From the NCBI RefSeq assembly GCF_022227845.1, contig NZ_JAJNQN010000001.1, positions 1-64,000 on the forward strand: 64,000 bases of DNA, read 5' to 3'. Source of the stretch: Ectothiorhodospira lacustris. GTDB taxonomy: Bacteria; Pseudomonadota; Gammaproteobacteria; Ectothiorhodospirales; Ectothiorhodospiraceae. The translations under genes were made by a program, and so were the position numbers. Positions 12,843 to 31,051 of this stretch are shown here, piece after piece (position 1 is the stretch's first letter; every line of letters begins with the position of its first letter). Below the pieces are notes generated by a model, which searched no databases, was not told where the DNA came from, and worked only from the letters and a program-made list of their open reading frames with translations.

Positions 12843-14561
12843 TCAGTCGTGGACCTCGCTCCAGGGCACCACCAGCAGTCTTTGGTGATGTTGCTCAAGA
12901 ATCTCCCGGATCCATCGGCCCTCGGCAGCCTGACGCGCCTTAAGGATGGGATCGCTCACCGTCACTGGGCTGAGTGCCTGATTCACGATCCAGCCGGCGG
13001 GCTCGATGCCGGCCCGCCGCAGATCCGCCTGCAGCGCCGCGGCCTCATGCACCGGCGTGGCCTCCGGCAGGGTACAGATCAGCACGTGGGTGAAGGCCGG
13101 ATCCCGTAGCCGGGGCAGCAGCTGTTCCACTGCCTCCGGCACGCCCTGGCTCTGGCGCCCCAACTCCCGATGGTAGGCCTGCGCGGCATCCAGCAGGAGG
13201 ATGGTGTGGCCGGTGGGTGCCGTGTCCAGGACCACGAACTGTTCCCGGGCCTGATCGACCGTCTTGGCAAAGGCCTGGAAGACGGCAATCTCCTCGGTAC
13301 AGGGAGAACGCAGATCCTCTTCCAGCAAGCGGCGGCCCTCCTCGTCCAGATCCTTGCCGGCGGAGGCCATGACCGCTTCCCGATAACGCCGGGTTTCCAG
13401 AACCGGGTCCACGCGCCCGATGGTCATGCCTTCGGGCATCTCGCCCACGGCGGCCTGCACATGCGCCGCCGGATCCGTGGTGGTCAGATGGACCTTGTGG
13501 CCGCGCTCGGCCAGGGCCACCGCGATGCGGGCCGCCAGGGTGGTCTTGCCCACACCGCCCTTGCCCATGGTCATGATGGCACCATGGCCACCGACTGCCA
13601 GGGCATCCACCAGTGCATCGAAGGATTCCCCCTCCGGCACCGGGAACGATTCGCCGGGCTCGGGCGCGGGCGCGGGCTCCGTGTCGGCCAGCAGGATGCG
13701 CAGGCCTTCCAGCCCCATGGGGGGACGACCCCGCAGCGGGCGTTCACTGCGCGGCAGGTCCCTCAGCATGGCGGGTATGCGTTCCAGGGCCTGGCGCCCC
13801 CGCGCCTCCAGGGCGCGGGCCACTGGATCATCTTGAGCCACGGCCCGGAACAGGCCGTTGACCACCAGATGCTGATTCGCCACACCCAACTCCCGCAGTT
13901 CCCCGCTGGAACGGGCCGCCTCGTTGAGGGCCGCCGCCTCGGGGCGGCTGACGAGTACCAGAGTGGTGCGTCGGCCATCGCCAAGGCTCTCCATGGCCCG
14001 GGCATAGATCTCTTTCTGGCCGGCCAAACCCTCCAACGGTCCCAGGCAGGAGGTACCGGAGGTATTGCTTTCGATATACCCGGTCCAGGCGCGGGGCAGG
14101 GACAAGAGGCGCAGGGTGTGCCCCGTGGGCGCGGTATCGAAGACCAGGTGATCGAAGTCCCGGGTGGATCCGGGATCCCCCAACAGGGCAGCGAAGGCGT
14201 CAAACGCCGCAATCTCAATGGTGCAGGCCCCGGAGAGCTGTTCCTCCATGCTGTTGACCACGGTTTCCGGGAGTTTGCCCCGGTAGGGACCCACCACCCG
14301 CTCACGATAGGCGGCGGCGGCCTTTTCCGGATCGATGTTCAGGGCCTTGAGGCCCGGCACGCCCCGGATGGGGGTCGGCGTGTCGCAGAGGGGGGTTTCC
14401 AGGACCTCGTCCACGTTTGAAGCCGGATCGGTGGAAATGAGCAGGACCTTCCTACCCTGTTCAGCCAGGGCCAGGGCACCGGCGCAGGCCAGCGAGGTCT
14501 TGCCCACGCCCCCCTTGCCGGTGAAGAAGAGATGTCGGGTGGGGTCTTGCAGGAAATTCAT
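12843..14561 (-). CDS. arsA: Arsenite-activated pump ATPase ArsA
   Basis: 572 residues, a full two-domain ArsA (plasmid R773 ArsA is 583). It has two P-loops (GKGGVGKT at 15-22 and 333-340) and two DTAPTGHT signal motifs. The three arsenite-binding cysteines are present at residues 113, 172 and 421, nearly identical to R773 numbering (113, 172, 422). The protein energises ArsB for arsenite extrusion with ATP. It is downstream of arsD, as in arsDA pairs, but arsB is about 15 kb away beyond the arx genes. No frameshifts; codon use resembles neighbours. Confidence 0.96.
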   Translation of the reverse strand: MNFLQDPTRHLFFTGKGGVGKTSLACAGALALAEQGRKVLLISTDPASNVDEVLETPLCDTPTPIRGVPGLKALNIDPEKAAAAYRERVVGPYRGKLPETVVNSMEEQLSGACTIEIAAFDAFAALLGDPGSTRDFDHLVFDTAPTGHTLRLLSLPRAWTGYIESNTSGTSCLGPLEGLAGQKEIYARAMESLGDGRRTTLVLVSRPEAAALNEAARSSGELRELGVANQHLVVNGLFRAVAQDDPVARALEARGRQALERIPAMLRDLPRSERPLRGRPPMGLEGLRILLADTEPAPAPEPGESFPVPEGESFDALVDALAVGGHGAIMTMGKGGVGKTTLAARIAVALAERGHKVHLTTTDPAAHVQAAVGEMPEGMTIGRVDPVLETRRYREAVMASAGKDLDEEGRRLLEEDLRSPCTEEIAVFQAFAKTVDQAREQFVVLDTAPTGHTILLLDAAQAYHRELGRQSQGVPEAVEQLLPRLRDPAFTHVLICTLPEATPVHEAAALQADLRRAGIEPAGWIVNQALSPVTVSDPILKARQAAEGRWIREILEQHHQRLLVVPWSEVHD

Positions 14562-14640
14562 GAGAAGCCTCGATGTGAATTCATGTCCCCCTGAGTGGAG
14601 AAGGGAGCCAGCCCCCCCCTCAGGGAGAAAAGGAAGTCAG

Positions 14641-14692
14641 AGCCCCTCTCCCGCTGGCGGGAGAGGGGTTGGGGTGAGGGTGGAGAAGCTTC
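14641..14692. repeat. REP-like GC hairpin element between arsD and arsA
   Basis: Perfect 11-bp stem CCCCTCTCCCG/CGGGAGAGGGG with a CTGG loop, followed by a TTGGGGTGAGGG tail of the kind common in intergenic repeats. It shares the CCCCTCTCCC core with the terminator after pnp. No T-run follows on the minus strand, so it probably stabilises or partitions the arsDA mRNA rather than terminating it. It fills most of the 134-bp gap. Confidence 0.55.
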
Positions 14693-14695
14693 AAT

Positions 14696-15046
14696 TCAGC
14701 CGCAGCAACTGTTACCCGGACTGACGCTCTTGCTGCATTCCACCTCCAGACCCGTCCACTGGGCCAATTGCTCCCGATCCGGGTACACACCCCGACTCCT
14801 GACCTCTCCGTTCACCAAGAACACCGGCAGGGCGCCCTCGCCGTCCTGCTCCAGGATGGCCTGAATGGTCGCGTTCTCCACGAAGGCGCCGGGTTGCTGG
14901 GACAGGTTGTAACGGGTCACGGTCACGCCGGCATGACGCAGCCAGGCCAGATCCCCTGCCAACTTTGAGAGCTTGGGATCCACACTGGGTCCGCACACGC
15001 CGCTGGCACAGCACTGGGGTGGGTCGAATACGGTCACTTCGGTCAT
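14696..15046 (-). CDS. arsD: Arsenic metallochaperone ArsD
   Basis: 116 residues from the ATG with an upstream GGAG. The arsenite-binding triad Cys12-Cys13-Cys18 (QCCASGVCGP) matches R773 ArsD position for position, and a vicinal CC pair is at the C-terminus (NSCCG). ArsD delivers arsenite to ArsA and can act as a weak co-repressor. The open frame extends 18 codons upstream across the promoter; the internal ATG is preferred because it aligns the cysteines. First gene of an arsD-arsA unit. Confidence 0.95.
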   Translation of the reverse strand: MTEVTVFDPPQCCASGVCGPSVDPKLSKLAGDLAWLRHAGVTVTRYNLSQQPGAFVENATIQAILEQDGEGALPVFLVNGEVRSRGVYPDREQLAQWTGLEVECSKSVSPGNSCCG

Positions 15047-15081
15047 GATGATTGTCTCCGGGAGAATGGCATTGCTCGTGT

Positions 15082-15123
15082 AGAATACGCATTTACGCAT
15101 ATATGATCAAACATATATGATGC
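15082..15123 (-). promoter_or_regulatory. arsDA promoter with ArsR-box-like operator
   Basis: Minus strand: TTGATC (15105-15110), 17-bp spacer, TATTCT (15082-15087), a good sigma70 promoter with a start about 30 nt before arsD. It overlaps 15097-15123, where CATATATGATCAAACATATA contains CATATATGAT twice at about 12-bp spacing. On the minus strand this reads TCATATATGTTTGATC, very like the E. coli ars operator (TCATATATGTTTTTGACTT, from memory). Likely bound by an ArsR encoded elsewhere, since none is in the window. Confidence 0.65.
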
Positions 15124-15208: not shown

Positions 15209-15727
15209 TCAGGACAATGACGCCCAGTTCAGGATGAAATCCCGGATCTGTCCCACATCGCTGAGCGACAGTACGGGCAAAGCGGTCTGCACCGATACCG
15301 GCTCGTCCGTAGCCACGGCGATGATGTCCGGGTCCTGAAGGTAGCGGGCAGGCTTGCCCAGGGAGGGACGAAACAGTTCCAGCTTGGGGAAGGGCTCCGC
15401 CTTGAATCCCTCCACCAGGATCAGATCGGTGCGGGACGCATCCAGGTGCCCGATCAGCTCCCACAGATCCGGCTCCCGGGACTCGGGCTGCTCCACCATC
15501 AGGGCAAACCGCTGAGTGGAGGCAATGAGCATCTGCTCGGCACCCGCCTTGCGCAGTGCGTGGCTGTCCTTGCCCGGTTGATCCACATCGAAAGTGTGAT
15601 GGGCATGCTTGATGACCGCAATCCGAATGCCCCGCTCCCGCAGCAGGGGGATCAACTGCACCAGCAGGGTGGTCTTTCCGGTACCGCTCCAGGCGGCAAA
15701 ACCCAGGATGGGTGGGGAATGCTCCAT
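15209..15727 (-). CDS. mobB: Molybdopterin-guanine dinucleotide biosynthesis adapter MobB
   Basis: 172 residues from ATG 15727, 56 bp after arxD. Walker A is GFAAWSGTGKTTL near the N-terminus, followed by the family blocks AVIKHAHHTFDVDQPGKDSHA and DLILVEGFK. MobB is a GTP-binding partner of MobA in bis-MGD cofactor synthesis and delivery. Its position at the end of the arx gene run suggests a role in loading ArxA. A longer frame (from 15832) would overlap the arxD end and add 35 residues unlike the family. mobA is not in the window. Confidence 0.92.
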   Translation of the reverse strand: MEHSPPILGFAAWSGTGKTTLLVQLIPLLRERGIRIAVIKHAHHTFDVDQPGKDSHALRKAGAEQMLIASTQRFALMVEQPESREPDLWELIGHLDASRTDLILVEGFKAEPFPKLELFRPSLGKPARYLQDPDIIAVATDEPVSVQTALPVLSLSDVGQIRDFILNWASLS

Positions 15728-15783
15728 GGGGTGTTCTGTCTCCCGCCGAAGGCCTTCGGATCTGTTGGGTGGGGTCACTTCAC

Positions 15784-16659
15784 TTACCGGCCGGAAAAGG
15801 ATCGCCGTCTTCCCGGCAGACCCGGAGGACACATGGCGGCCATCCCCATGACCTGATCCCGCTCGTCCACGGGGATCGCCACATGTTCGGCGGGCAGGCC
15901 GTCGGCCGCCAGTCGCTCCCGGATCACCGCCATGTCCGCCTCGCTCAGGTGGCGACCGGCATACTGGGCACGCAGACGGGCGATCTCCGGATCGATGTCC
16001 TCACCGCCTTGGCATGGGACGGGGGGCGCCGACACATGGCCAGCCATGTCCGCCTGTACCGCCGCCTCCAGCAGGCAGGCCAGAGCCGTGTAGGGATGGT
16101 CGGGCAGTTCGAATCGGCGGCCTGCCTGCTCGATATCCAGCCGTAGCGGCGTGACCCAGCGGGCCACGAAATGCTGCAGAAACTCATCGGCCGTCATTGG
16201 CGCAGGCTCACCCTCCCCGGCTGCGGCCTCGGCACGGGCCGCCAGCAGCCAGGCCACAAACTCCAGCTGCACACTGATCTGATCCGGCAGATCGTGGAAG
16301 TCTTCGCCCTTGTCCAGACCGCAGCGCCGGTAGCAGCCGTGTATAGCATGCACCGAACCGCCGGCGATGGTGCCATCCAGGTAACTGGCGGTGTTGAGAC
16401 TGGGATGATCCGCGCCCGGCATCAGAAAGAGACGGGAATACACCACCAGCAGACCCGGGTCATCCAGGCCTCTCAGGCTGTCCCGCAAGGCCGCCAGCGG
16501 GACCTCGACGTCATAGCCGCAGGGTCCGGCGGCCGCTTCCAGGTCCAGGGGCAGGGTATCCCGCAGGGCACTCAGGGTGCCGGGGGCCGGGACCGCAAAG
16601 GCCCGGGACAGGCACAGATAATAGGCAGCGCGTTCGATCTCTCGGCCGACGTCGTACAT
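15784..16659 (-). CDS. arxD: TorD/DmsD-type molybdoenzyme chaperone ArxD
   Basis: 291 residues, somewhat long for TorD-like proteins (about 200-230). An all-helical N-terminal region has RAAYYLCLSRAFAVPAP and, in the middle, YSRLFLMPGADHPSLNTASYLDG, the usual position of the conserved TorD-family tyrosine/leucine/phenylalanine-rich segment. It is expected to bind the Tat leader of ArxA and hold it for cofactor insertion. It follows arxC by 81 bp and precedes mobB. The paralogue family is broad, so the assignment rests on context. Confidence 0.85.
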   Translation of the reverse strand: MYDVGREIERAAYYLCLSRAFAVPAPGTLSALRDTLPLDLEAAAGPCGYDVEVPLAALRDSLRGLDDPGLLVVYSRLFLMPGADHPSLNTASYLDGTIAGGSVHAIHGCYRRCGLDKGEDFHDLPDQISVQLEFVAWLLAARAEAAAGEGEPAPMTADEFLQHFVARWVTPLRLDIEQAGRRFELPDHPYTALACLLEAAVQADMAGHVSAPPVPCQGGEDIDPEIARLRAQYAGRHLSEADMAVIRERLAADGLPAEHVAIPVDERDQVMGMAAMCPPGLPGRRRSFSGR

Positions 16660-16740: not shown

Positions 16741-17880
16741 TCAGCGGCTGCGGGTGATCCCCAGCACCCCGCCCAGGGCGTTGACCACGTTGGCCAGGAA
16801 GATGGCCATGATCAGCAACAGCCACTCCGTGGACGACGGGGCATAGGACAGCACCGGCGGTGCCCAGCTACCCTTGAACAGGGGGATGATCTGGCCGCCG
16901 ATGATGTACTCGTAACGACCGATGAACAGCCCCACCATCACCAGCACGGCGGCGGCCACCTGGACCAGAATGTTGCGCCGCAGGGCATGACTGAACATGA
17001 TCACCAGGGCCGTCATCAGGGCCGCCAGTTCAATCCAGTACAGGGGGGAGGAAACGATGTACTGCCAGGCCTGCAGACCTTCCACGTTGCCGTACAGGCC
17101 GTTGACGGTCCGGCCCACCACGAACACCAGATGCAGCACGATGGCCCAGGCGAAGACGCCCCCCATCCTCCCGGCAAACACCGAACGAATGGACACCGGC
17201 ACCTTGTCGGCCTGGAAGCCGTAGGCCAACAGGGTGAAGAAATAGACGAAGGCCAGACCGCCGACGATGGATTCCACGATGAAGGCGGCCGGGATGTCAC
17301 CGGAGGCCCAGAAGGGGCGGAAACTCTGGGAGCCGTACACCACCCCTGCCAGGGCCGTCACCAGAATGGCAAACAGCAACGTCAGCCGGGTGAGCCCCCG
17401 CAGACTGTCCAGGGTGGACTGGGTGGCCCGGGCACGCCAGATCAACAGCAGCAGGCAGACGGTGAAACCGATCACCGCCAGCACCTTCCAGTACAAGGGG
17501 GAGCTGAAGGCGAAACTGAAGGGAATGAGGAACATGGCCCGCAGGGGGTAGCCCAACTCCATCATCAGCACCGCCACCCCACCGCTGAGACCGGCCAGGG
17601 CCAACCACAAGCTGCGCGCAAACAGGGGACGGAAGGTCTCGCCGGTGAACAAAAAACCGAAGCAGGCCACCATGGCAATGCCGGTGGAGGTGAGCAGGAA
17701 AAAGTCATACACCACGATGGGAAAACCCCAGAACAGGCCGTCGTTGGAGATGTTGAAGGCCGCATGGCCCTGGCTGGACAGATTGAACATCACCAGCCCG
17801 GCGGTGATCAGAAAGCCGATCCCCGCCACCAGCAGGATGGGCATCTGGATGCCCTTGTTGTCCATGGTTGCAGTGGTCAT
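16741..17880 (-). CDS. arxC: Arsenite oxidase membrane subunit ArxC (NrfD/PsrC family)
   Basis: 379 residues with about 9-10 predicted transmembrane helices; the NrfD/PsrC polysulfide-reductase fold is the best fit (FFWGFPIVVYDFFLLTSTG near the N-terminus, FLANVVNALGGVLGI at the C-terminus). It should anchor ArxAB on the periplasmic face and exchange electrons with the quinone pool. The ATG at 17880 has AGAGGA upstream; a TTG 18 nt further upstream overlaps the arxB stop and is less likely. No heme ligands are expected in this family. Confidence 0.9.
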   Translation of the reverse strand: MTTATMDNKGIQMPILLVAGIGFLITAGLVMFNLSSQGHAAFNISNDGLFWGFPIVVYDFFLLTSTGIAMVACFGFLFTGETFRPLFARSLWLALAGLSGGVAVLMMELGYPLRAMFLIPFSFAFSSPLYWKVLAVIGFTVCLLLLIWRARATQSTLDSLRGLTRLTLLFAILVTALAGVVYGSQSFRPFWASGDIPAAFIVESIVGGLAFVYFFTLLAYGFQADKVPVSIRSVFAGRMGGVFAWAIVLHLVFVVGRTVNGLYGNVEGLQAWQYIVSSPLYWIELAALMTALVIMFSHALRRNILVQVAAAVLVMVGLFIGRYEYIIGGQIIPLFKGSWAPPVLSYAPSSTEWLLLIMAIFLANVVNALGGVLGITRSR

Positions 17881-17894
17881 GGTCTGGATTCCTC

Positions 17895-18656
17895 TCAAGC
17901 CTTGTCTTGGTGGACCGCACGCAGTGAGGGCACTGCCGCGGAGGCGCCGCCCGACAGGTAATAGACCTGGGGCTTGTTGCCGGTTTCATCCTTCAGCCGG
18001 GTGCCCCGGTGATCGGCGATGAGCTTGTTCACCCGGCTCTCCGGATGATCCAGGTCACCGAAGAAACGGGCCTTGGGGGCGCACACCCGCACACAGGCGG
18101 GCACGTATTCCTTCAGTTCCGGGATGTCCTCGTCCAGGTCCGGCACGCCCGCGGGGGCCTGGCTCACCTTGTGGTAACAGAAGGTGCACTTGGAAACGAC
18201 CCCGTGGGGCTGGATGCCGATGCCCCGACGGGGGTCGTCCTGGGGTCCCTTCCAGGGCGGATCCCACTGGCGGCCCTCCTCCGACGGGAAGACCGTGCGG
18301 ATGTCCGGCTGTACCACCGCCTTCTCATCGGTGTAGAAACGCACCCCGTAGGGACAGGCCACCTGGCAGTACTTGCAGCCGATGCAGCGGTTCCAGTCGA
18401 TGAGCACGAACCCGCCCTCCGGGTCCTTGTAGGTGGCCCGGGTGGGGCACACCGAGACACAGGAGGGGTTTTCGCAATGCATGCAGGGACGGGGCAGCCA
18501 CTTGAGCTGCACGTTGGGATACTTGCCCTCGTGATAGAAGAGCACGTCCTGCCAGTTCTCCCCCGGCAGGCGGCTGTTTTCCATGGCACAGGCCGTGGTA
18601 CAGGCTTGGCAGCCGGTGCAGGTGTCCAGGTCGATGACCATTCCCCATTTCGCCAT
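17895..18656 (-). CDS. arxB: Arsenite oxidase iron-sulfur subunit ArxB
   Basis: 253 residues. Four cysteine groups for four [4Fe-4S] clusters, as in DmsB/PsrB/ArrB: DTCTGCQACTTAC, PCMHCENPSCVSVCP, RCIGCKYCQVACP and a split CTFC with CVRVCAPKA near the C-terminus. It carries electrons between the Mo centre of ArxA and ArxC. No signal peptide, as expected for hitchhiker Tat export with ArxA. It lies 30 bp after arxA and 14 bp before arxC. Confidence 0.94.
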   Translation of the reverse strand: MAKWGMVIDLDTCTGCQACTTACAMENSRLPGENWQDVLFYHEGKYPNVQLKWLPRPCMHCENPSCVSVCPTRATYKDPEGGFVLIDWNRCIGCKYCQVACPYGVRFYTDEKAVVQPDIRTVFPSEEGRQWDPPWKGPQDDPRRGIGIQPHGVVSKCTFCYHKVSQAPAGVPDLDEDIPELKEYVPACVRVCAPKARFFGDLDHPESRVNKLIADHRGTRLKDETGNKPQVYYLSGGASAAVPSLRAVHQDKA

Positions 18657-18686: not shown

Positions 18687-21173
18687 TCAGGCGCGCTCGA
18701 TGCGAACCTTGGTGGTGTAGTAACTGCACTGGCCGGTGATGCGGTCGGACTGGTTCACCGTGATTTCGCCGCTGTGGCCGGGCTTGCGTCCCTTGGCCCA
18801 GCGTCCGTGAGCCCAGTGGCCGTGCTCCATCGGGAATACCAGAGTGTCCGGACGCACCCCCTCGTAGTACTTGCAGAAGCCCTCGATGGCGCCCAGATCG
18901 GAACTGATGCGCACCCGTGACCCGTCCGGAATGCCTCGGGCCCGGGCGGTCTTGGGATTGATTTCGATGTAAATGGTATTGCGGCCACCCAGGGTGGGCT
19001 GCATGTTGGCGATGGCCACCGGCAGGTTGGCGCCCCGCCCTTCCGCGTGCAGCGCCACCTTGGGGGTGACCATGTAAAGATCACCACCGCCGGGATGGCT
19101 GGGTTCCTCCCAGATGGGGAACATGAGCCGGGACGGGTCACGACCGGTCTTGGCGGCGATCCAGTCCGCATGGGCCTCCAGCCAGCCGGAACGGATCTCG
19201 AACTTGCCGGACGCGGTCTTGAACAACGCGCCCCTGACTTCATCGGCGGACATGAGACGGGCATGGTCCTGGCCGTCCCACTCATAGAACTCGCCATCGA
19301 TCTGCCGATAGGGGTAGACCCGCTTGTACCAGACCCCCTTTTCCTTCCAGCTCTCGAAGGAATTGACGCCGTTGTCGCCGGGGTCGCTTTCAAAGCCCTT
19401 GGCCAGGTGCCGAATGACGTTCTCCGTGTTGTCCAGGGCTTGGTAGTACTCGCCCATGGAACCATTGATCCGCTTGCCCAATTCGATGAGGACATCACCG
19501 AAGTATTTCGTATCGTAGAGGGGCTTGACCGCCGGCACCCGCAACTGGGTCATGGGCCAGCCCTGGAAGGGATAGGTGGGCGCATCCTGCAGCCGCTCCA
19601 GATAGGTGTGGTCCGGCAGGATCACGTCGGCGAACATGGCCGTCTCGCTGGGGAACGGGGAAGTCTCGATGACGAACAGTTCCTTGAGGGCCGCCTCCCA
19701 GGCCTTCACGTCCGGCGCCGTCCAGATGGCGTTGTTCAGGTAGAACATGATGGTATCCAGCTTGTAGGGCTTACCCTGCAGGGAGTTGGGCCCGATCTCC
19801 TGCATCATGTTGTTGGCCAGCAGGTAGCCGTCGGGATGACCCTTGAGGTCGATGCGAGGCTGCGCCTTCCAGCCACCGGCTCTGGCCCAATCATCCAGGT
19901 AGTCATCCGCGTTCACCGGCAAAGGACCGTAGGAGGGCCCCACCTGGTAGGCCAGGCCGCCCTTGGCGTAGAGGGACCCCACCAGGGCATTGAGGGTGTG
20001 GATGGCCATGCCGTTGAAGATGCCGTTGCTGTGAGCATGGGCCCCCCGCTCATACAGGGCGATGGCCGGACGGGTGGTACCGAACTCATGGGCGGTGGCC
20101 AGGATATCCCGCTCGTACAAGGTGGTGACCTGGGCCGCCCAGCGGGGAGTGCGATCCTTGAGTTCCGCATTCCACCATTCCACCAATCCCTTGACCCACT
20201 TCTCCTCGAAGCTGTCCGGGTCCACGGTCTCGCCCGGGATGAAGCGGTTGACGCCGTCGCCGAAATCACCCACGAATGCCTTCTCCCACAGCCCTTCGAC
20301 AAGGATCACGTGGGCGATGGCCAGGGCCAGGGCACCATCCGTCCCCGGCTTGATGAGCAGGGCCCGATCCGAACCGGCCAGGGTGGTGTTCATGTGTACA
20401 TCCACCGCCGTGATGCGGGTCTTGGGCACCTTCACCCCGCGGATGTAACCCCACACCTGCATGTTGTTGTTGTAGGGACGGAAGGCCTCCAGGAAACCGG
20501 CACCGAACATGAGCAGCATGTTGGCGTTCTTGTAGTCATAGCTGTTGTACCCGCCGATGCCGTCCACCGCCTTCTTGGAGATGATGCTGCCGTCGGAGCA
20601 CATGGAGGAATGACCGATGGCCACGTTGGGGGAGCCGTAAAGCTTGCCGAAATTGCCCAACAGTCCGGCGCAGGAAGCGCCCCAGCCGCGCCCGTAGAGC
20701 AAGGCGAAGCGATGGGATTCCTCCCGCTCACGCAGCCCGTTGAGGCGCTCGGCCACCATGTCCAGGGCCTCGTTCCAGCTGATGGGCACGAAGCCAGGGT
20801 CCTGGTCCCGGCCCTTGCTCGGGTTGGTGCGCTTCATCGGCCCCTTGAAACGATCGGGGTCATAGAGGATGTAGGCCCCCAGGGGACCCTTGGGGCAGAG
20901 CTTGCCGTTGGAGATGGGGTGGTCCGAGGTCCCGTAGATGGCGTGGACCCGGCCCCCGGTGGTGTAGACATCGATGCCGCAACGGGCCGGGCACTGATGG
21001 CAGATGTTCTTGGTGATGGTGGTATCGGCCGACGGTGCCGGCGACCGGGCATGGGACAGGGTCGTCAGGCCGGGGACCACCCCGGCCCCACCGGCCACCA
21101 CCCCGGCACCCGCCACGGCGCCGGTGGCCTTGAGAAAACGGCGCCGATTGATCAAGGTTTCAAGCAGCTTCAT
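18687..21173 (-). CDS. arxA: Anaerobic arsenite oxidase catalytic subunit ArxA (DMSO reductase family)
   Basis: 828 residues. Tat leader RRRFLKATGAV at 10-20 followed by an Ala/Gly-rich core. A [4Fe-4S] site is formed by Cys58, Cys61, Cys65 and Cys93 (CHQCPARC, NGKLCPKG). The Mo ligand is probably Cys192 in GHSSMCSDGS, as in the ArrA/PsrA branch. A C-terminal molybdopterin-dinucleotide binding domain (about 690-828) follows. Expected reaction: arsenite to arsenate with electrons to ArxB. The neighbours arxB2, arxC, arxD and divergent arxXSR favour ArxA over its sister, respiratory arsenate reductase ArrA, but a tree is needed to settle this. Residue content and length fit both clades. Confidence 0.88.
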   Translation of the reverse strand: MKLLETLINRRRFLKATGAVAGAGVVAGGAGVVPGLTTLSHARSPAPSADTTITKNICHQCPARCGIDVYTTGGRVHAIYGTSDHPISNGKLCPKGPLGAYILYDPDRFKGPMKRTNPSKGRDQDPGFVPISWNEALDMVAERLNGLREREESHRFALLYGRGWGASCAGLLGNFGKLYGSPNVAIGHSSMCSDGSIISKKAVDGIGGYNSYDYKNANMLLMFGAGFLEAFRPYNNNMQVWGYIRGVKVPKTRITAVDVHMNTTLAGSDRALLIKPGTDGALALAIAHVILVEGLWEKAFVGDFGDGVNRFIPGETVDPDSFEEKWVKGLVEWWNAELKDRTPRWAAQVTTLYERDILATAHEFGTTRPAIALYERGAHAHSNGIFNGMAIHTLNALVGSLYAKGGLAYQVGPSYGPLPVNADDYLDDWARAGGWKAQPRIDLKGHPDGYLLANNMMQEIGPNSLQGKPYKLDTIMFYLNNAIWTAPDVKAWEAALKELFVIETSPFPSETAMFADVILPDHTYLERLQDAPTYPFQGWPMTQLRVPAVKPLYDTKYFGDVLIELGKRINGSMGEYYQALDNTENVIRHLAKGFESDPGDNGVNSFESWKEKGVWYKRVYPYRQIDGEFYEWDGQDHARLMSADEVRGALFKTASGKFEIRSGWLEAHADWIAAKTGRDPSRLMFPIWEEPSHPGGGDLYMVTPKVALHAEGRGANLPVAIANMQPTLGGRNTIYIEINPKTARARGIPDGSRVRISSDLGAIEGFCKYYEGVRPDTLVFPMEHGHWAHGRWAKGRKPGHSGEITVNQSDRITGQCSYYTTKVRIERA

Positions 21174-21196: not shown

Positions 21197-22462
21197 TCAG
21201 GCCCGGGACACACCGGGCGCATCCGGAGCAGCCTCCGGGGGATGACATGGGTCCGCTATCCGGGCCGAATCCTCACATTCGGCCATTTGCCGAAACAGGG
21301 ATCTCGCAAAGGCCTGGGAACGGGCGCAGGGGACACATTCGCTCTCATCGCCGAGGGTCTGGAACGGACTGCCGCAGCGGCGGCAGGTGCGCGAACCGAA
21401 CTCGCGCAGGACTTCCGGCAAGCGCCAGTCATCGTCCTGCCGTGCCTCAATCCGCAGGGCCTGCTCCGGACAGGCCCGCTCACAGGCCCCGCAACCGATG
21501 CAGTGACAGGGATCAAAGATCAATGCCGTGGACCCGCTTTCCTCCTGCCGACGAAACAGGGCCCCGGTGGGGCAGACCGAACTGCAGACCCCATGGCCGC
21601 GGCAGTCATCACCGACTTCCATGGCACTGAACAGTCCATGGGGCATGGGTAAAGCTTGTTGCCGGGCCAGTTCCAGACAGGCGTTGAGCAGACGCAGACG
21701 GGCATCCGAAGGCCGGGCCGACGGCACGCGGGACAAGGCTGGGGGTGCCGTGAGTGAGGCCGTCCCGGTCGCCGGGGAGACGAGCGACATCGCCGGTACG
21801 GTATGGCCCATCAAACGCCCCGCCTCCAGCCCCAGGCGGCCCAGAAAGGCCCGGCGTGAGGCGTCGGGGATCGAGGAATCTTGTGCCGTCACCCCGCAAG
21901 CCCCCGGGGCCGGGGCCGATTGCAGGCGCGGCAGGTGAGACAGGGGGACCCCCATGGTTTCCAGCAGATGGCGGGCCTGATCCAGGGTCGCCCGGGACGG
22001 ATGGATCTCTGCCCCGCCACCGGAAGGGCAGTGGGCACAGAGTCCACGATCCACCAACCGGGGTCCCTCCCCCGCCAGACGATGGGCGTGGATCAGGGCG
22101 GCCGCATCCAGCCCGCCCAGACAGGGCACCATCCGTGATCGAGGCAGGCGCGCAGAAGGCGGAACCTGCTCACACTCCAGATGCGTGGCCGGCGACGCCT
22201 CGGACCCGACCCCCTCCAGGGACAAGGCGCCCATGGGACAGGCCGCCACGCAACGGCCACAGCCGGTGCAACCCTCGGCGGGTTCCGGCACCGCGTCGGC
22301 GCTCGACGGCCGCAGGGCCTGAACGGGACAGACCCGCACACAGGCGTCACAGCCGCCGAGGCGAATGGAGAGGGTCTGGCAGGTCATCACCGCCAACTGC
22401 AGTCCCCGGGCGGGGTGCAAGGTACGATGCACGGCGACGGGCAGGGAAGAATATGCTTGCAT
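21197..22462 (-). CDS. arxB2: Polyferredoxin ArxB2 (multi-[4Fe-4S] protein)
   Basis: About 421 residues from ATG 22462. The N-terminal half has two [4Fe-4S] motifs (GGCDACVRVCP and CTGCGRCVAACP) and extra cysteines (CLGGLD, CAHCPSGGG). The C-terminal half has two more clusters (DDCRGHGVCSSVCP, CHCIGCGACERACP) and a CRRCGSPF...CVPC zinc-ribbon-like tail. Between the halves (about residues 205-220) is SRRAFLGRLG, a twin-arginine-like motif inside the protein. Start uncertain: a candidate -24/-12 promoter places transcription at about 22463, which would make this ATG leaderless; a downstream ATG at 22387 is the alternative. Codons between the two starts show coding-like GC3. First gene of the arx operon, 23 bp before arxA. 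Confidence 0.8.
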   Translation of the reverse strand: MQAYSSLPVAVHRTLHPARGLQLAVMTCQTLSIRLGGCDACVRVCPVQALRPSSADAVPEPAEGCTGCGRCVAACPMGALSLEGVGSEASPATHLECEQVPPSARLPRSRMVPCLGGLDAAALIHAHRLAGEGPRLVDRGLCAHCPSGGGAEIHPSRATLDQARHLLETMGVPLSHLPRLQSAPAPGACGVTAQDSSIPDASRRAFLGRLGLEAGRLMGHTVPAMSLVSPATGTASLTAPPALSRVPSARPSDARLRLLNACLELARQQALPMPHGLFSAMEVGDDCRGHGVCSSVCPTGALFRRQEESGSTALIFDPCHCIGCGACERACPEQALRIEARQDDDWRLPEVLREFGSRTCRRCGSPFQTLGDESECVPCARSQAFARSLFRQMAECEDSARIADPCHPPEAAPDAPGVSRA

Positions 22463-22474
22463 GGCATATATAAA

Positions 22475-22488
22475 GCACAAAAAATACC
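22475..22488 (-). promoter_or_regulatory. Candidate sigma54 (-24/-12) promoter for arxB2-arxA-arxB-arxC
   Basis: On the minus strand GG (22488-22487) and GC (22476-22475) are separated by exactly 10 bases, within AGGTATTTTTTGTGCT. The invariant GG/GC dinucleotides and their spacing fit the sigma54 consensus; the flanking bases match only partly. It lies about 65 bp downstream of the nearest ArxR-like dyad, which suits an enhancer-dependent promoter. Confidence 0.6.
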
Positions 22489-22514
22489 TGGTTTTATACC
22501 AGACTGTTTTCAAA

Positions 22515-22542
22515 GATGATTTTGACAATCATCAAAATCATC
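22515..22542. promoter_or_regulatory. FNR/Anr-like box inside an 11-bp inverted repeat
   Basis: A perfect 11-bp inverted repeat (GATGATTTTGA/TCAAAATCATC, 6-nt centre) contains TTGAC-AATC-ATCAA at 22522-22535. It differs from the FNR consensus TTGAT-N4-ATCAA at one position and has exact spacing. It sits between the putative ArxR sites and the arxB2 promoter, centred about 65 bp upstream of the predicted arxB2 start. It could give anaerobic control of either divergent unit. Confidence 0.55.
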
Positions 22543-22553
22543 CAGAGGGTCCC

Positions 22554-22569
22554 GTTACCATGCGGTAAC
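22554..22569. promoter_or_regulatory. Putative ArxR enhancer site 1 (GTTACC-N4-GGTAAC)
   Basis: Perfect dyad GTTACCATGCGGTAAC. First of three near-identical 16-bp sites in the divergent arxB2/arxX region, nearest to the arxB2 promoter (about 90-105 bp upstream of the predicted start), the usual place for sigma54 activator sites. Confidence 0.7.
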
Positions 22570-22587
22570 ATGAGCACCCGCTAACCC

Positions 22588-22603
22588 GTCACCATCGGGT
22601 AAC
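22588..22603. promoter_or_regulatory. Putative ArxR enhancer site 2
   Basis: GTCACCATCGGGTAAC, one mismatch in the dyad relative to site 1. Its centre is 34 bp from site 1 and 30 bp from site 3, close to three helical turns, so all three sites may lie on roughly the same DNA face. Confidence 0.65.
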
Positions 22604-22617
22604 ACCCGGCACAAAGC

Positions 22618-22633
22618 GTTACCATGCGGTAAC
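22618..22633. promoter_or_regulatory. Putative ArxR enhancer site 3, adjacent to arxX
   Basis: Identical to site 1 (GTTACCATGCGGTAAC). It ends 16 bp before the arxX start codon, directly upstream of the AGGAG ribosome binding site, so occupancy could also repress arxXSR. Confidence 0.68.
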
Positions 22634-22649: not shown

Positions 22650-23522
22650 ATGGGCGAACCTGCCACCGAGACCGGTTTTTCCCTGCGTCGGCGCCGGACC
22701 CTGCAGGCGCTGGGCTGCCTGGGCGCCCTGGGCTGGGCACGTGCCGGCGCCGATGAGCCCATCCGCTTCGGCCTCACGCCGGTGTTCCTGGATGACCAGG
22801 TGGGTTTTCTGGGGCGCTGGCGATGGTATCTGGAAGGGCGCCTGGAACGGCCATTGCAGTTCGTGCAGCGACGCAGCTATGACGAGATCCTGCAATTGCT
22901 GCTGGAGGGGCGCATCGATTTCAGCTGGCTGTGCGGTTATCCCTACTGGCGTCATCGGCACCGCCTGGCCCTGGTCTCGGTACCGGTCTACGAGGGCGCG
23001 CCCCTCTACCGTGCCTACCTGATCCGCCACGCCGAGGACCCCCACCTCCAGGACCTGAACCGGCTGCGGGGTCGTACCTTCGCCTATTCGGATCCGGACT
23101 CCAATTCCGGCTATCTCTATGTGCGCCATCGCCTGCAACAACAGGGCCTCGACCCGGCGACCCTCTTCGGCCGCAGTTTCTTCACCCTGGCCCACCGCCG
23201 GGTCATCGAGGCCGTGGCGGTCCGGCTGGCGGATGCGGGCGCGGTGGATGGCTACGTCTGGGACGTGCTCTCCCGCCGCGCCCCCGGGATCACCGACGAC
23301 ACCCGTGTCATCGAACGCTCGGACCCCTTCGGTTTTCCCCCGGTGGTGGCCAGTCGGCACCTGGCGCCGACGTTGAGCGAATCCATGCAACGGGTGCTCA
23401 ACGGGATGCACCGGGATGCGGACGGCCGAGCCCTGCTGGCGGAACTGGCCCTGGACCGTTTCGAGACCGCGGCCCCCGACCTCTATGAAGACATCGGTCG
23501 CATGGCGGACGGGGTGGCCTGA
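22650..23522 (+). CDS. arxX: Periplasmic substrate-binding sensor protein ArxX (PhnD-like)
   Basis: 290 residues. An N-terminal twin-arginine-like stretch LRRRRTLQALG and hydrophobic segment (11-34) suggest export. The rest is a phosphonate/phosphate-type solute-binding fold: IRFGLTPVFLDDQVG, YDEILQLLLEGRIDFSWLCGYPY, and GRTFAYSDPDSNSGYL. Such proteins in sensory operons present a ligand (here presumably arsenite) to the sensor kinase. The stop codon is 1 nt from the arxS start. First gene of arxXSR, preceded by AGGAG. Confidence 0.88.
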   Translation: MGEPATETGFSLRRRRTLQALGCLGALGWARAGADEPIRFGLTPVFLDDQVGFLGRWRWYLEGRLERPLQFVQRRSYDEILQLLLEGRIDFSWLCGYPYWRHRHRLALVSVPVYEGAPLYRAYLIRHAEDPHLQDLNRLRGRTFAYSDPDSNSGYLYVRHRLQQQGLDPATLFGRSFFTLAHRRVIEAVAVRLADAGAVDGYVWDVLSRRAPGITDDTRVIERSDPFGFPPVVASRHLAPTLSESMQRVLNGMHRDADGRALLAELALDRFETAAPDLYEDIGRMADGVA

Positions 23523-23523
23523 C

Positions 23524-24981
23524 ATGCTGCTGCTGCGCGATCTCAGCCTGCGCTACAAGATCCCCCTGCGGGCCGTGGTCCTGGTGCTGATCACGGCCAC
23601 CCTGCTCACCGCCGTGCAGGTGCCGCGGGAACGGGATGAACTGCAGCATGACCTGGAGGAAAACGCCCGGCTGCTGGGCATTACTCTCACCCAGAACCTG
23701 GTGGTGCCCCTGATACAGGATGACGTCTGGCGGGCCTTTGAACTGCTGCGGTCACCGCTGTCCGGGGTTGACGAGCGGGCGGCGGAGCGCCTGCCCTTCG
23801 CCCTGGTATTGTTTGACCGGGACCTGCGGGTGATGGCCAGCTCCGATCCCGCCCGCTATCCGGTGAACGCGGAGCCCGAGGCCCTGCCCCGGTTTCGCGG
23901 CATCGCCCCCTGGGTACGGGCATCCCCCACCCTGCCCGGGGCGCGGCCCTTGGTGGTGGACGAAAACACACTGGCCCTGGTGCTGCCGGTGGTGGCCGAC
24001 GGCGTCACCCTGGGACATCTGGTCCTGGGCTATTCCCGGGACGGCATGCGTGCCCGCGCCGCCCGTCTGGTGCAGCAATCGGTGATCTACACCCTGGCCC
24101 TGCTGGCCCTGATCCTGCCCCTCACCTGGTACTGGGGGCAGCGCACCGCCAGACCGCTGATCAAGCTGGCCGACGGCATGGCGCAAGTGGGGGCCGGCCT
24201 GCCCGAGGATGCCGCCCTGGACCTGGAAGAGTCGGGGGACGAGATCGGCCGTGCCGGCGTGGCCTTTCGGCGCATGCTCTATGAACTGCGGCAGAAAGAG
24301 GCCCTGGAGCAGGAGGTGATGGTGAACGAACGGCTGGCGGCCGTGGGGCGCCTGGCCGCCGGCGTGGCCCATGAGATCAACAACCCTTTGGGGGGCATGC
24401 TCAATGCGGTAGATACCTTCAAGCGCTACGGTGGCGATGCCGAGCAGACGGCCCGTACCCTGTCCCTCATCGAACGGGGCCTGCTGCAGATCCGGGACAC
24501 GGTCTCCGCCCTGTTGGTGGAGGCCCGCCCCTCGGGCAAGCCCCTGTCCCTGCAGGACTTTGAAGACTTGCATACCCTAGTGTCCGCCGACGCCCACCGA
24601 CAACGGGTGAACTTTGACTGGCACGTGGCGCTGCCGGACGTGCCCCTGCCCTTGCCGGCCACCCTGGTCAGGCAGGTGGTGCTGAACCTGCTGCTCAACG
24701 CCCTGCAATCCACGCCGCCAGGCGAGATCATCACCGTCTGCGCCCACATCACGGGCGAATACCTGAGCATCCAGGTGATCAACGCAGGCCCCCTCATCCC
24801 GCCGGAACGCCTCGGTCACTTGTTCGAACCCTTCGCCGGAGATCACCCTCGCGGCCACGGCCTGGGCCTGTGGGTGAGCTACCAGATCGTCCAGCAGCTC
24901 AGAGGACAGATCGCCGTGGACAGCGACGAGAGTGGCACCGGCTTCACGGTAAGACTGCCCCTGTGCCACGAGGAGGATTGA
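23524..24981 (+). CDS. arxS: Sensor histidine kinase ArxS
   Basis: 485 residues. TM1 at about 17-33, a periplasmic domain to about 183, TM2 at about 186-204, then a HAMP-like linker. The HisKA motif LAAGVAHEINNPLGG places phospho-accepting His283; the kinase domain has N box LNLLLNALQS (387-396) and G boxes GHGLGLWVSY and GTGFTVRLP. The periplasmic domain is expected to read ArxX. The start is 1 nt after the arxX stop; its stop overlaps the arxR start by 1 nt (TGATG), so the three genes are tightly coupled. Confidence 0.92.
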   Translation: MLLLRDLSLRYKIPLRAVVLVLITATLLTAVQVPRERDELQHDLEENARLLGITLTQNLVVPLIQDDVWRAFELLRSPLSGVDERAAERLPFALVLFDRDLRVMASSDPARYPVNAEPEALPRFRGIAPWVRASPTLPGARPLVVDENTLALVLPVVADGVTLGHLVLGYSRDGMRARAARLVQQSVIYTLALLALILPLTWYWGQRTARPLIKLADGMAQVGAGLPEDAALDLEESGDEIGRAGVAFRRMLYELRQKEALEQEVMVNERLAAVGRLAAGVAHEINNPLGGMLNAVDTFKRYGGDAEQTARTLSLIERGLLQIRDTVSALLVEARPSGKPLSLQDFEDLHTLVSADAHRQRVNFDWHVALPDVPLPLPATLVRQVVLNLLLNALQSTPPGEIITVCAHITGEYLSIQVINAGPLIPPERLGHLFEPFAGDHPRGHGLGLWVSYQIVQQLRGQIAVDSDESGTGFTVRLPLCHEED

Positions 24982-26354
24982 TGAAGATGAAGACGAAGGC
25001 ACGCATTCTGATCGTGGAAGACGACGCCATCATGGGTGAGTCCCTGCTGGATCGTTTCCGCCTGGAACACTACGACGCCCTCTGGTGCCGCTCCGCCGAA
25101 GACGCCCTGGCCCGCCTGTCCGCCCGGCCGGTGGACCTGGTCCTAAGCGACATTCGTCTTCCCGGGATGAACGGCCGTGCGCTGCTGGAGGCCGTCAACG
25201 GTCTGCCGACGGCACCACCGGTCATCCTCATCACCGGTTACGGCGCCATTCAGGAGGCGGTCTCGGCACTCAAGGCGGGGGCGGCGGACTATGTCACCAA
25301 ACCTTTTGATCTGAACCGGCTGATGGAAAAGGTGGCGGGCCTGTGTCCCGAGCGAGAAGACCGGGAGGGTTTCCCGCCTCTGGGCGTCTCCGCGCAGATG
25401 CGGCAACTGGAGTCCCTGCTGCCCCGGGTGGCCGCCCAGGCCGGAACCATCCTGATCACGGGAGAATCGGGCGTGGGCAAGGAACGGGTTGCCCGACGCC
25501 TGCATGATCTGTCTGGCGGTACCCCCGAATTCCCCTTTTTGGCCATCAACTGCGCCGCCCTGCCCCATCCCCTGCTGGAGGCCGAGCTGTTCGGCCATGA
25601 GAAGGGGGCCTTCACCGGTGCAGACCGCCGCCGTACCGGGCTGTTCGAGGCCGCGGGGAGCGGCAGCCTGTTCCTGGATGAGATCGGCGAACTGGATCTG
25701 TCCATGCAGGCCAAGCTGCTGCGGGCGGTGCAGGAACGGGAGGTGATGCCCATCGGCAGCCACAGTCCACGACGATTCGAGGCGCGACTGATCTTCGCCA
25801 CCAACCGAAATCTGCGGGAGGAAGTGGAACAGGGCCGTTTCCGGGAGGACCTGTACTACCGGATCAACGTGATTCACCTGCACGTCCCGCCGCTGCGGGA
25901 GCGACGGGAGGACATCCCCTGGCTGGCCCAGGGGTTCGCGGCGGACTGTTCCCGCCGACAGGGCAAGCGCTGTGTGATCACGCCCCAGACGATGGATACC
26001 CTGTCGATCCATGATTGGCCGGGCAACGTGCGGGAACTCAAGCACGCCATCGAACGGGCCTGCATCCTGTCCGATTCACCGGTGATCCAGGGGAGTGATA
26101 TTTTCAGGGAGCGTGACGCGGGCCTATCGGAAACCCACGCCGGGGACACCGGGACATCGGCTCCGGCGGCAACCCATCAGGACTTTGATCTATCCACCCA
26201 TCTGCAACGCTGTGAGCGGGCCTTCATCCTGGAGGCCCTGCGGGCCAACGAGGGCAGGATCACCCAGACCGCCCAGGCCCTGGGCATCAGCCGCAAGAAT
26301 CTGTGGGAAAAGATGCGGCGGCTGGGGCTGGGGGCTGATGGGCCGGGGCATTGA
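24981..26354 (+). CDS. arxR: Sigma54-dependent response regulator ArxR (NtrC family)
   Basis: 457 residues. Receiver domain 1-120 with acidic pocket EDD, phospho-acceptor Asp57 and Lys107. AAA+ domain has Walker A GESGVGKE at 161-168, the sigma54-contact loop GAFTGA at 209-214 and Walker B SLFLDEIGEL near 229-238. A Fis-type helix-turn-helix (ITQTAQALGISRKNLWEKM) closes the C-terminus. The intact GAFTGA supports activation of a sigma54 promoter; three dyads in the arxB2/arxX gap are the natural binding sites. It converges on the GGDEF gene with a 1-bp gap. Confidence 0.94.
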   Translation: MKMKTKARILIVEDDAIMGESLLDRFRLEHYDALWCRSAEDALARLSARPVDLVLSDIRLPGMNGRALLEAVNGLPTAPPVILITGYGAIQEAVSALKAGAADYVTKPFDLNRLMEKVAGLCPEREDREGFPPLGVSAQMRQLESLLPRVAAQAGTILITGESGVGKERVARRLHDLSGGTPEFPFLAINCAALPHPLLEAELFGHEKGAFTGADRRRTGLFEAAGSGSLFLDEIGELDLSMQAKLLRAVQEREVMPIGSHSPRRFEARLIFATNRNLREEVEQGRFREDLYYRINVIHLHVPPLRERREDIPWLAQGFAADCSRRQGKRCVITPQTMDTLSIHDWPGNVRELKHAIERACILSDSPVIQGSDIFRERDAGLSETHAGDTGTSAPAATHQDFDLSTHLQRCERAFILEALRANEGRITQTAQALGISRKNLWEKMRRLGLGADGPGH

Positions 26355-29125: not shown

Positions 29126-30418
29126 TCAGCGGATCAGCGACAGCCAGCCGGCCAGGGCCAGCAGCGTGACCAGCAGCACCGGCGGCGTGATCAGGATGCC
29201 GATCCTGAAATACTGGCCCCAGGTGATCTTGATGCCTCGTCGCGCCAGCACGTGCAGCCACAACAGGGTGGCCAGGCTGCCGATGGGGGTGATCTTCGGC
29301 CCCAGGTCGGAACCGATGATGTTGGCATAGATCATTGCCTCCTTGATCACGCCGGTGACATTGGCCTCGTCGATGGACAGGGCCACCACCATCACCCCTG
29401 GCATGTTGTTCATGATGGAAGAGAAGAAGGCGGCGATGAAGCCGGTCCCCACCGCCGCCGCCGTCACCCCAAACTGACCGATCCAGTCCAGGGCAATGGC
29501 GATGTCCGCCGTCAGCCCGGCATTGCGCAGGCCGTAGACCACCAGATACATGCCCACGGAGAAGATCACGATCTGCCAGGGGGCACTGACGAAGACCCGG
29601 CGGGTGGAAATCACATGTCCCCGCGCAGCCACCGCCAACAGGATGGCGGCACCCAGACCCACCATGGCGGAAATGGGCACACCCATGGGCTCGATCACCA
29701 AAAAGCAGAACAGCAGCAGGGCCAACACCACCCAGCCCGTCTTGAACACGGCCGGGTCCTTGATGGCCTGTTCGGGCCTGCGCAGACCGTCGAGGCTGTA
29801 GGTGCGGGGGATCTGTTTGCGGAAGAACAGATACAGGATACCCAGCGAGGCGGTCACCGAGACGGCATTAACCACCATCATCACGGCGGCGTACTCGCGG
29901 AAGTTGATACCGAAGAAATCCGCCGAGACGATGTTTACCAGGTTGGAGGTGACCAGGGGCAGACTGGCGGTGTCGGCGATGAAACCGGCGGCGATGACGA
30001 AGGCAAAGGCCGCCCCGGCGGTGAAGCCCAGGGCCAGAAGCATCTCCAGCACGATGGGAGTGAGCATGAGGGCAGCACCGTCGTTCGCAAACATGGCGGC
30101 CACCGCAGCGCCCAGCAGGATGATGAAACAGTACAGGCGCAGGCCGCTACCCTTGCCCCAGCGAGCCACGTGCAGAGCCGCCCATTCAAAGAATCCGGCC
30201 TCGTCCAGCAGTAGGGAAATGATGATAATGAAGACGAAGGTGAGCGTGGCGTTCCAGACGATGTCCACCACGATGGGCACGTCGGAGAACTGCACCACCC
30301 CCGTGGCCAGGGCCAGGGCCGCGCCGCCCAAGGCGCTCCAGCCGATACCAAGCCCCTTGGGCTGCCAGATGACGAAGGTGATGGTGACGATGAAGATCGT
30401 CAGGGCGGTCAACAACAT
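29126..30418 (-). CDS. arsB: Arsenite efflux transporter ArsB
   Basis: 430 residues, same length as R773/E. coli ArsB (429). About 12 membrane helices in an ion-transporter superfamily fold; diagnostic blocks are [34 protein letters not shown] and [14 protein letters not shown], and [22 protein letters not shown] at the C-terminal half. It extrudes arsenite, driven by the membrane potential alone or by ATP with ArsA. ArsA and ArsD are encoded about 15 kb away in the same window. Divergent from arsC. Confidence 0.95.
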
Positions 30419-30554
30419 GGATATGTCCTGTGGTCGGGTTCAGTCAGACAGCCACTGCCGCACCTCGCCATGGCCTTCGGCATGGAAGCGCTGTGCACCA
30501 GGGTGAAGATTTCCAGCATGCACTATGCCGGGTCATTCATTAGTCATGAGAGAT

Positions 30555-30583
30555 AAGATATAGTCCATACCGCATATTCGCAA
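30555..30583 (-). promoter_or_regulatory. Candidate arsB promoter
   Basis: Minus strand TTGCGA, 17-bp spacer, TATCTT (four of six matches each), inside the 201-bp arsB/arsC divergent region. The start would leave a 130-nt arsB leader. An AT-rich imperfect dyad ATATT...AATAT (30574-30592) overlaps the -35 and could be a metalloregulator site. Neither is strong. Confidence 0.35.
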
Positions 30584-30619
30584 GAACAAATATCTATTCA
30601 CCCACCAAGGCACAGCCCC

Positions 30620-31051
30620 ATGACTTCATCAAATAATCCCAGCATCCTGTTCCTCTGCACCGGCAACTCCTGCCGTTCCCAGATGGCTGAAGGCTTTGCC
30701 CGTCATCTGGGAGGCGACGCCTTCCGGATCCAGTCGGCGGGGATCGAGGCCCACGGCAAGAACCCCCGGGCCATCCTGGCCATGGCGGAACTGGGGATCG
30801 ACATCAGCGGCCAGGAATCCACCCGCGTCACCGATGCCATGCTGGTGGAGGCGGATCTGGTGGTGACGGTCTGTGGGCACGCGGATGAACATTGCCCCCT
30901 GCTGCCTCCGGGCACACGGCGCCTGCACTGGCCCCTGACGGACCCGGCCAAGGCCACCGGCACCGAGGAAGAGATCAACCTGGCCTTCAGGCAGATACGG
31001 GACGAGATCCGGGCGCGGGTGAGCACCCTGCTGGCAGATCTGAAGCGCTGA
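30620..31051 (+). CDS. arsC: Thioredoxin-dependent arsenate reductase
   Basis: 143 residues of the low-molecular-weight phosphatase-like ArsC family (Staphylococcus pI258 type). The P-loop CTGNSCRS has catalytic Cys13, and the redox relay cysteines Cys85 and Cys92 (VCGHADEHC) are seven residues apart, as Cys82/Cys89 in pI258 ArsC. It reduces cytoplasmic arsenate to arsenite for ArsB export. Divergent from arsB; followed by a strong terminator shared with tRNA-fMet. Confidence 0.94.
   Translation: MTSSNNPSILFLCTGNSCRSQMAEGFARHLGGDAFRIQSAGIEAHGKNPRAILAMAELGIDISGQESTRVTDAMLVEADLVVTVCGHADEHCPLLPPGTRRLHWPLTDPAKATGTEEEINLAFRQIRDEIRARVSTLLADLKR

Follow-up and report, generated by a model that had tools for sequence, protein, structure and literature searches.

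Tandem GTTACC-N4-GGTAAC dyads between arxB2 and arxX of Ectothiorhodospira lacustris as probable ArxR enhancers related to AioR sites

Introduction

The NtrC enhancers of glnAp2 are TGCACC-N5-GGTGCA-type sites located near -108 and -140. Among the regulators of arsenite oxidation, AioR recognizes the consensus GTT-N10-AAC, and in Agrobacterium tumefaciens GW4 DNase I footprinting upstream of mcp showed it to cover GTTCGGATTTCCGAAC (PMC5335332). Control of the arx genes by ArxXSR was stated as undemonstrated in the open-access literature of 2019 (PMC6549141, PMC6683785), and an ArxR site (gtaacaattcaagc) and an RpoN site (tggcaaggctattgct) have been predicted in Alkalilimnicola ehrlichii MLHE-1 (PMC5908839).

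The arxB2-arxX intergenic region of Ectothiorhodospira lacustris carries three dyads of the GTTACC-N4-GGTAAC type that resemble the glnAp2 enhancers in several respects: the dyads are paired, have ACC/GGT cores, lie about three helical turns apart, go with a GAFTGA-bearing activator and precede a sigma54 promoter, here a candidate one, by about 100-160 bp; relative to its predicted start, the dyad centres fall near -98, -132 and -162. They differ in their outer bases and spacer length, and the signal would be arsenite, through ArxX and ArxS, rather than nitrogen status. With the AioR system they share the 16-bp frame GTT-N10-AAC, an XSR three-component system and a sigma54 promoter, in E. lacustris a candidate one, of an arsenite oxidase, but the inner triplet of betaproteobacterial and gammaproteobacterial (beta/gamma) arx sites is ACC/GGT instead of CGG/CCG, the arx sites mostly come in pairs spaced about 43 or 33 bp, with three copies in E. 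lacustris, and their target is arxB2ABCD. On these features, the arx dyads would belong to the AioR-type XSR/sigma54 enhancer class.

The MLHE-1 prediction concerns the same regulator and target operon and also proposes a sigma54 promoter, but its ArxR string is not a dyad and may hold just the right half-site (gtaac). Its RpoN string occurred in 0 of the 159 loci examined, MLHE-1 itself lying outside the set. A sequence-only reading of the present locus had suggested that its three sites would define the ArxR motif; the dyad is indeed sharply defined and widely conserved, but the motif is only partly new, given the published AioR consensus and footprint and the different ArxR site already predicted. 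What is new is how broadly the dyad is conserved, how cleanly its presence depends on arxXSR, and the proposed helix-site code described below.

Materials and methods

The window was the whole stretch of DNA analysed, 64,000 nucleotides long. ArxX homologues in relatives and 80 named arx loci, the latter collected by ArxA alignment, gave 90 distinct loci. A locus was scored as having the dyad if a match with two mismatches or fewer lay upstream of its first arx gene. A motif-only scan for two perfect dyads 28-48 bp apart covered 369 class-level and 398 phylum-level genomes, some of them shared. Sigma54 elements were scored by a scheme devised for this analysis, with a cut-off score of at least 18.

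Results and discussion

Gene organization and sequence of the dyads

The genes arxB2, arxA, arxB, arxC and arxD run leftward, and arxX (ATG 22650), arxS and arxR rightward (Table 1). ArxR (P0004) combines a receiver, a sigma54-interaction AAA+ domain whose GAFTGA is at residue 210, and an HTH_8 domain bearing the recognition helix SRKNLWEKM, so that the dyads do lie beside the gene of a GAFTGA-bearing NtrC-type regulator, as had been read from the sequence. RpoN is also encoded in the genome (PF04552 match). An alternative arxB2 start (GTG/ATG, 22390/22387), preceded by a possible Shine-Dalgarno sequence, was rejected as homologous N-termini favour ATG 22462.

Table 1. Coordinates of genes and of putative regulatory elements around the arxB2-arxX intergenic region, in window positions
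Feature	Position	Strand	Sequence or remark
arxD, TorD-like chaperone	15784..16659	-	
arxC	16741..17898	-	
arxB	17895..18656	-	
arxA, arsenite oxidase large subunit	18687..21173	-	
arxB2, Fe-S protein	21197..22462	-	ATG 22462 backed by homologous N-termini
Candidate sigma54 -24/-12 element for arxB2	22474..22489	-	AGGTATTTTTTGTGCT, GG-N10-GC; degenerate
Extended -10-like element (putative)	22493..22501	-	TGGTATAAA, from sequence reading
28-bp palindrome	22515..22542	-	GATGATTTTGA-TGATTG-TCAAAATCATC; 11-bp perfect arms; between site 1 and -24/-12
ArxR site 1 (putative), proximal to arxB2	22554..22569	.	GTTACCATGCGGTAAC, centre 22561.5
ArxR site 2 (putative)	22588..22603	.	GTCACCATCGGGTAAC, centre 22595.5
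ArxR site 3 (putative), 16 bp before arxX ATG	22618..22633	.	GTTACCATGCGGTAAC, centre 22625.5
arxX, periplasmic oxyanion-binding protein	22650..23522	+	PF12974
arxS, sensor kinase	23524..24981	+	
arxR, NtrC-type response regulator	24981..26354	+	Receiver, AAA+ with GAFTGA, HTH_8

All three dyads were found exactly where the sequence-only reading had placed them. Sites 1 and 3 are identical, as it had stated, whereas site 2 departs from it at three places rather than two (positions 3, 9 and 10; one in an arm, two in the spacer). The GTT/AAC ends of the 16-bp dyad are exact in sites 1 and 3, and site 2 has GTC at one end. At 10.5 bp per turn, the centre spacings are 34 bp (3.24 turns) between sites 1 and 2 and 30 bp (2.86 turns) between sites 2 and 3. 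Sites 1 and 3, 64 bp apart (6.1 turns), are in helical phase, but the phasing proposed for all three does not extend to site 2, which is about 1.5-2.5 bp off.

A whole-genome scan (3,280,934 bases) recovered the perfect GTTACC-N4-GGTAAC dyad only at sites 1 and 3. Three one-mismatch sites were present genome-wide, namely site 2 and two others within coding frames, one sucA-like (L057) and one RHS-repeat-like (L058); the existence of a wider ArxR regulon in this genome was therefore rejected. When up to three mismatches were allowed, the window held 12 matches against 11.3 expected, so that what makes the dyads significant is that exact copies occur and lie clustered. Among named relatives, the locus is closest to that of Ectothiorhodospira shaposhnikovii DSM 243 (L059; ArxA 99%), from which the 187-bp intergenic region differs at three places: the N4 spacer of site 3 (22625), to which the change in that site is confined, the -24 element (GGT in the window, GGC in the sister) and position 22470.

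Conservation of the dyad across arx loci

The sequence-only reading had proposed looking for the dyad upstream of arxB2/arxX in other genomes with arxXSR. It was present in 46 of the 48 loci with beta/gamma-type arxXSR, 40 of which carried at least two dyads, compared with 0 of the 19 loci without arxXSR (Halomonas, Marinospirillum, Nitrincola, Geminicoccaceae and others; at most two mismatches). The Fisher test for this comparison gave p = 9e-15, a value that overstates independence and is not to be taken literally because the loci are related. Permuted dyads of the same composition matched a mean of 0.79 of the 48 loci (maximum 10); this control and the genome scan led to the rejection of a chance origin. 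The loci spanned Ectothiorhodospira, Thiocapsa, Thioalkalivibrio, Tepidimonas, Hydrogenophaga, Rubrivivax, Piscinibacter, Ramlibacter, Thauera, Azoarcus, Aromatoleum, Sulfuritalea and others. Two loci (L117, L136) possessed arxXSR, yet had no clear dyad upstream of the first gene of the operon. The GTTACC-type dyad was found upstream of the first arx gene in 0 of the 7 loci with alphaproteobacterial (alpha-type) arxXSR (at most two mismatches).

The motif-only scan returned four tandem pairs in two genomes, all adjoining XSR genes or arsenic-type molybdoenzyme genes, and the reversed control pattern gave zero matches in the same genome samples.

Two further placements of the dyad were observed. 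The Azoarcus/Aromatoleum loci had an additional dyad (GTTACCGAACGGTAAC or one or two changes from it) at a conserved place about 520 bp inside arxB2 (L093:9287, L094:7939, L096:5279, L097:9284, L098:9287, L099:9282), which could reflect either coding constraint or a real internal site. L049 held a second pair between arxX and arxB2, at 9040 and 9083 in the arxA-forward orientation (43 bp apart), and the inserted genes beside it may be additional ArxR targets.

Sigma54 geometry and proposed mechanism

The dyads of 30 pairs lay 42-45 bp apart and those of 11 pairs 30-34 bp apart, and the spacings clustered on the 10.5-bp helix (Rayleigh R 0.78, 42 pairs). The -24/-12 element started 43-101 bp past the last dyad, toward arxB2, in most loci (e.g. 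TGGCACACGCTTTGCA in L043 and TGGCACACCCCTTGCT in L044). Downstream of the dyads, 83% of loci had a sigma54 score at or above the cut-off; for shuffled sequence the figure was 0.8%, and for the reverse strand 2%.

The -24/-12-like promoter that had been read downstream of the dyads in E. lacustris exists as GG-N10-GC (AGGCATTTTTTGTGCT in E. shaposhnikovii) and starts about 65 bp after site 1 (64-bp spacer), inside the range of the homologues. It is, however, degenerate: with a score of 16.9 it falls in the weakest class, and it departs from the TGGCAC/TTGC context, which is strong in most homologues. The transcript would also begin at the arxB2 ATG or immediately beside it, in contrast to the homologues, which have a leader; as homologous proteins start at the equivalent of ATG 22462, the leader has seemingly been lost in this clade. 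This predicted near-leaderless transcript is the weakest step of the mechanism proposed here.

Conservation, co-occurrence with arxXSR, sigma54 geometry in the homologues, the GAFTGA motif and the presence of RpoN all give computational support to the initial suggestion that the dyads are ArxR enhancers, and very probably they are ArxR binding sites driving arxB2-A-B-C-D through sigma54. Arsenite bound by ArxX would be signalled through ArxS to ArxR, and phosphorylated ArxR dimers would bind the dyads and assemble there. Through its GAFTGA loop, ArxR would then act on RNA polymerase-sigma54 at the -24/-12 element, which lies about 64 bp nearer arxB2, and so switch on arxB2-A-B-C-D.

The dyads might instead be mainly operators of arxXSR, mediating autoregulation by ArxR or another regulator, given that site 3 overlaps the leader/promoter region of arxX and that the nearest dyad in L014 and L020 also begins 19-24 bp before arxX. 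This is improbable in view of three loci (L043, L044, L046) in which arxXSR has its place after arxD, in the same orientation: here the pair of dyads remains upstream of arxB2, and no dyad was seen before the relocated arxX, which argues that the sites belong to the oxidase promoter. The XSR loci of Alphaproteobacteria likewise hold their site before aioB/arxB2, downstream of the regulator genes. Under the enhancer reading, the position of site 3 so close to the arxX start codon means that the same ArxR occupancy probably also dampens or tunes arxXSR. No sigma70 promoter for arxX was detected by consensus scan.

Covariation of the site with the recognition helix

The helix of alphaproteobacterial AioR (SRTTLWEKM) aligns with that of ArxR, and the recognition helices fell into two forms, SRK[N/S/T]LW for the beta/gamma type of regulator and [S/G/A]R[T/S]TLW for the alpha type. 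GTTCGG/CCGAAC-type sites were found at alphaproteobacterial aio loci (NT-26, pSinA, Agrobacterium, Rhodobacter, Microvirga, Paracoccus) and at alphaproteobacterial arx loci (L078, L079, L121, L123, L127 and Cereibacter ORIO, L143), while L081, L084 and L085 had GTCCGG/CCGGAC sites. GTTAC-type sites occurred at beta/gamma aio loci (L047, L145, L146) and arr-like loci (L031, L141), indicating that the site follows the lineage of the regulator and not the enzyme.

Half-sites were GTTACC (104) and GTTACG (22) with the KN helix, GTTACC (12) with KS, GTTACG (7) and GTTACC (4) with KT, and GTTCGG (28) with TT; the ST helix went with GTCCGG in three loci. L108, from a genome binned as Rhodospirillaceae, combined a K-T helix with a GTTACG site, so that the site there followed the helix and not the host class. 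Since few independent changes lie behind the pattern, the code is offered as a hypothesis in which KN or KS would specify GTTACC, KT GTTACG or GTTACC, TT GTTCGG, and ST GTCCGG.

ArxR binding is so far a prediction, and the dyads could in principle serve an unrelated palindrome-binding regulator, their nearness to arx being incidental. Such a coincidence is barely credible, however, as the presence of the dyad tracks arxXSR across loci and its sequence tracks the ArxR/AioR recognition helix.

Alpha-type regulators with GAFTGA or GAFSGA (L078, L147-L149, L151) were associated with strong -24/-12 elements (scores 20.4-21.2). The GAFTGA loop was missing from most Rhodobacteraceae-type ArxR/AioR (L079, L081, L084, L085, L121, L123, L127, L143, L150, L152), and most of their promoters had no strong -24/-12 element; L081, L121 and L127 scored in between. 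This agrees with the NtrC of Rhodobacterales, which is reported to have no GAFTGA and to work through sigma70 (PMC10274813). By analogy, the Rhodobacteraceae-type ArxR/AioR may activate sigma70 like Rhodobacter capsulatus NtrC.

At L047, a GTTACC-type dyad (position 6445) lies upstream of a gammaproteobacterial aioBA-like operon with XSR, and a second perfect dyad (position 594), near another frame, may mark a further target.

A candidate second promoter

In class II FNR promoters, about 32 bp separate the centre of a TTGAT-N4-ATCAA box from the -10 centre downstream of it. The palindrome between site 1 and the -24/-12 element, missing from the earlier reading, has a core (TTGATGATTGTCAA, 22522-22535) that agrees with the FNR box in 9 of its 10 positions, and the putative extended -10 element is centred 33 bp downstream of the box centre, near the class II spacing. 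The palindrome is unchanged in E. shaposhnikovii, and the genome encodes two FNR homologues (51% identity). Its arrangement with the extended -10 suggests a second, oxygen-controlled arxB2 promoter beside arsenite control, and a dual ArxR/sigma54 and FNR/sigma70 promoter is a reasonable reading of the region. Expression of arxA in Azoarcus CIB and A. ehrlichii is reported to need both arsenite and anaerobiosis (PMC6683785).

These observations and the degenerate -24/-12 element could also mean that the main arxB2 promoter here is the FNR-activated sigma70 promoter, with ArxR/sigma54 weakened or secondary, and FNR-like boxes are indeed present in 4 of the 19 loci without arxXSR. Such an arrangement is unlikely, as none of the three putative ArxR dyads is damaged, the -24/-12 element keeps its GG and GC at the expected distance, ArxR retains GAFTGA, and nearly all other arxXSR-bearing loci have no FNR-like box. 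An FNR box as a general arx feature was rejected, since few loci carry one.

The helix code and the FNR-like promoter can be combined in a tentative proposal, somewhat more doubtful than probable, in which residues 440-441 of ArxR/AioR would set the inner triplet whatever the enzyme (Arx, Aio or Arr-like), and the Ectothiorhodospira arx promoter would join ArxR/sigma54 with FNR/sigma70 as an arsenite-and-anoxia gate. The helix code, if true, makes target operons predictable from the regulator and vice versa, and the helix-site covariation is a ready system for studying how NtrC-family regulators shift DNA specificity. The defined, widely conserved site makes ArxXSR control of arx directly testable, allows operons for arsenic respiration and arsenite oxidation to be predicted across genomes, and supplies parts for arsenite biosensors.

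Among the loci without arxXSR, L074 had a perfect FNR box (TTGATAATTATCAA) located roughly 114 bp before arxB2; a -10-like TATTCG lies 33 bp from the centre of this box. FNR is a possible alternative regulator for arx operons without ArxR. Around the arx genes of E. lacustris, frames resembling arsA, arsD, an ArsB-type permease gene and arsC (window positions 12843-15100 and 29126-31051) and a frame resembling mobB (15209-15832) were recognized by eye from their translations, which suggests an arsenic island with its own cofactor gene.
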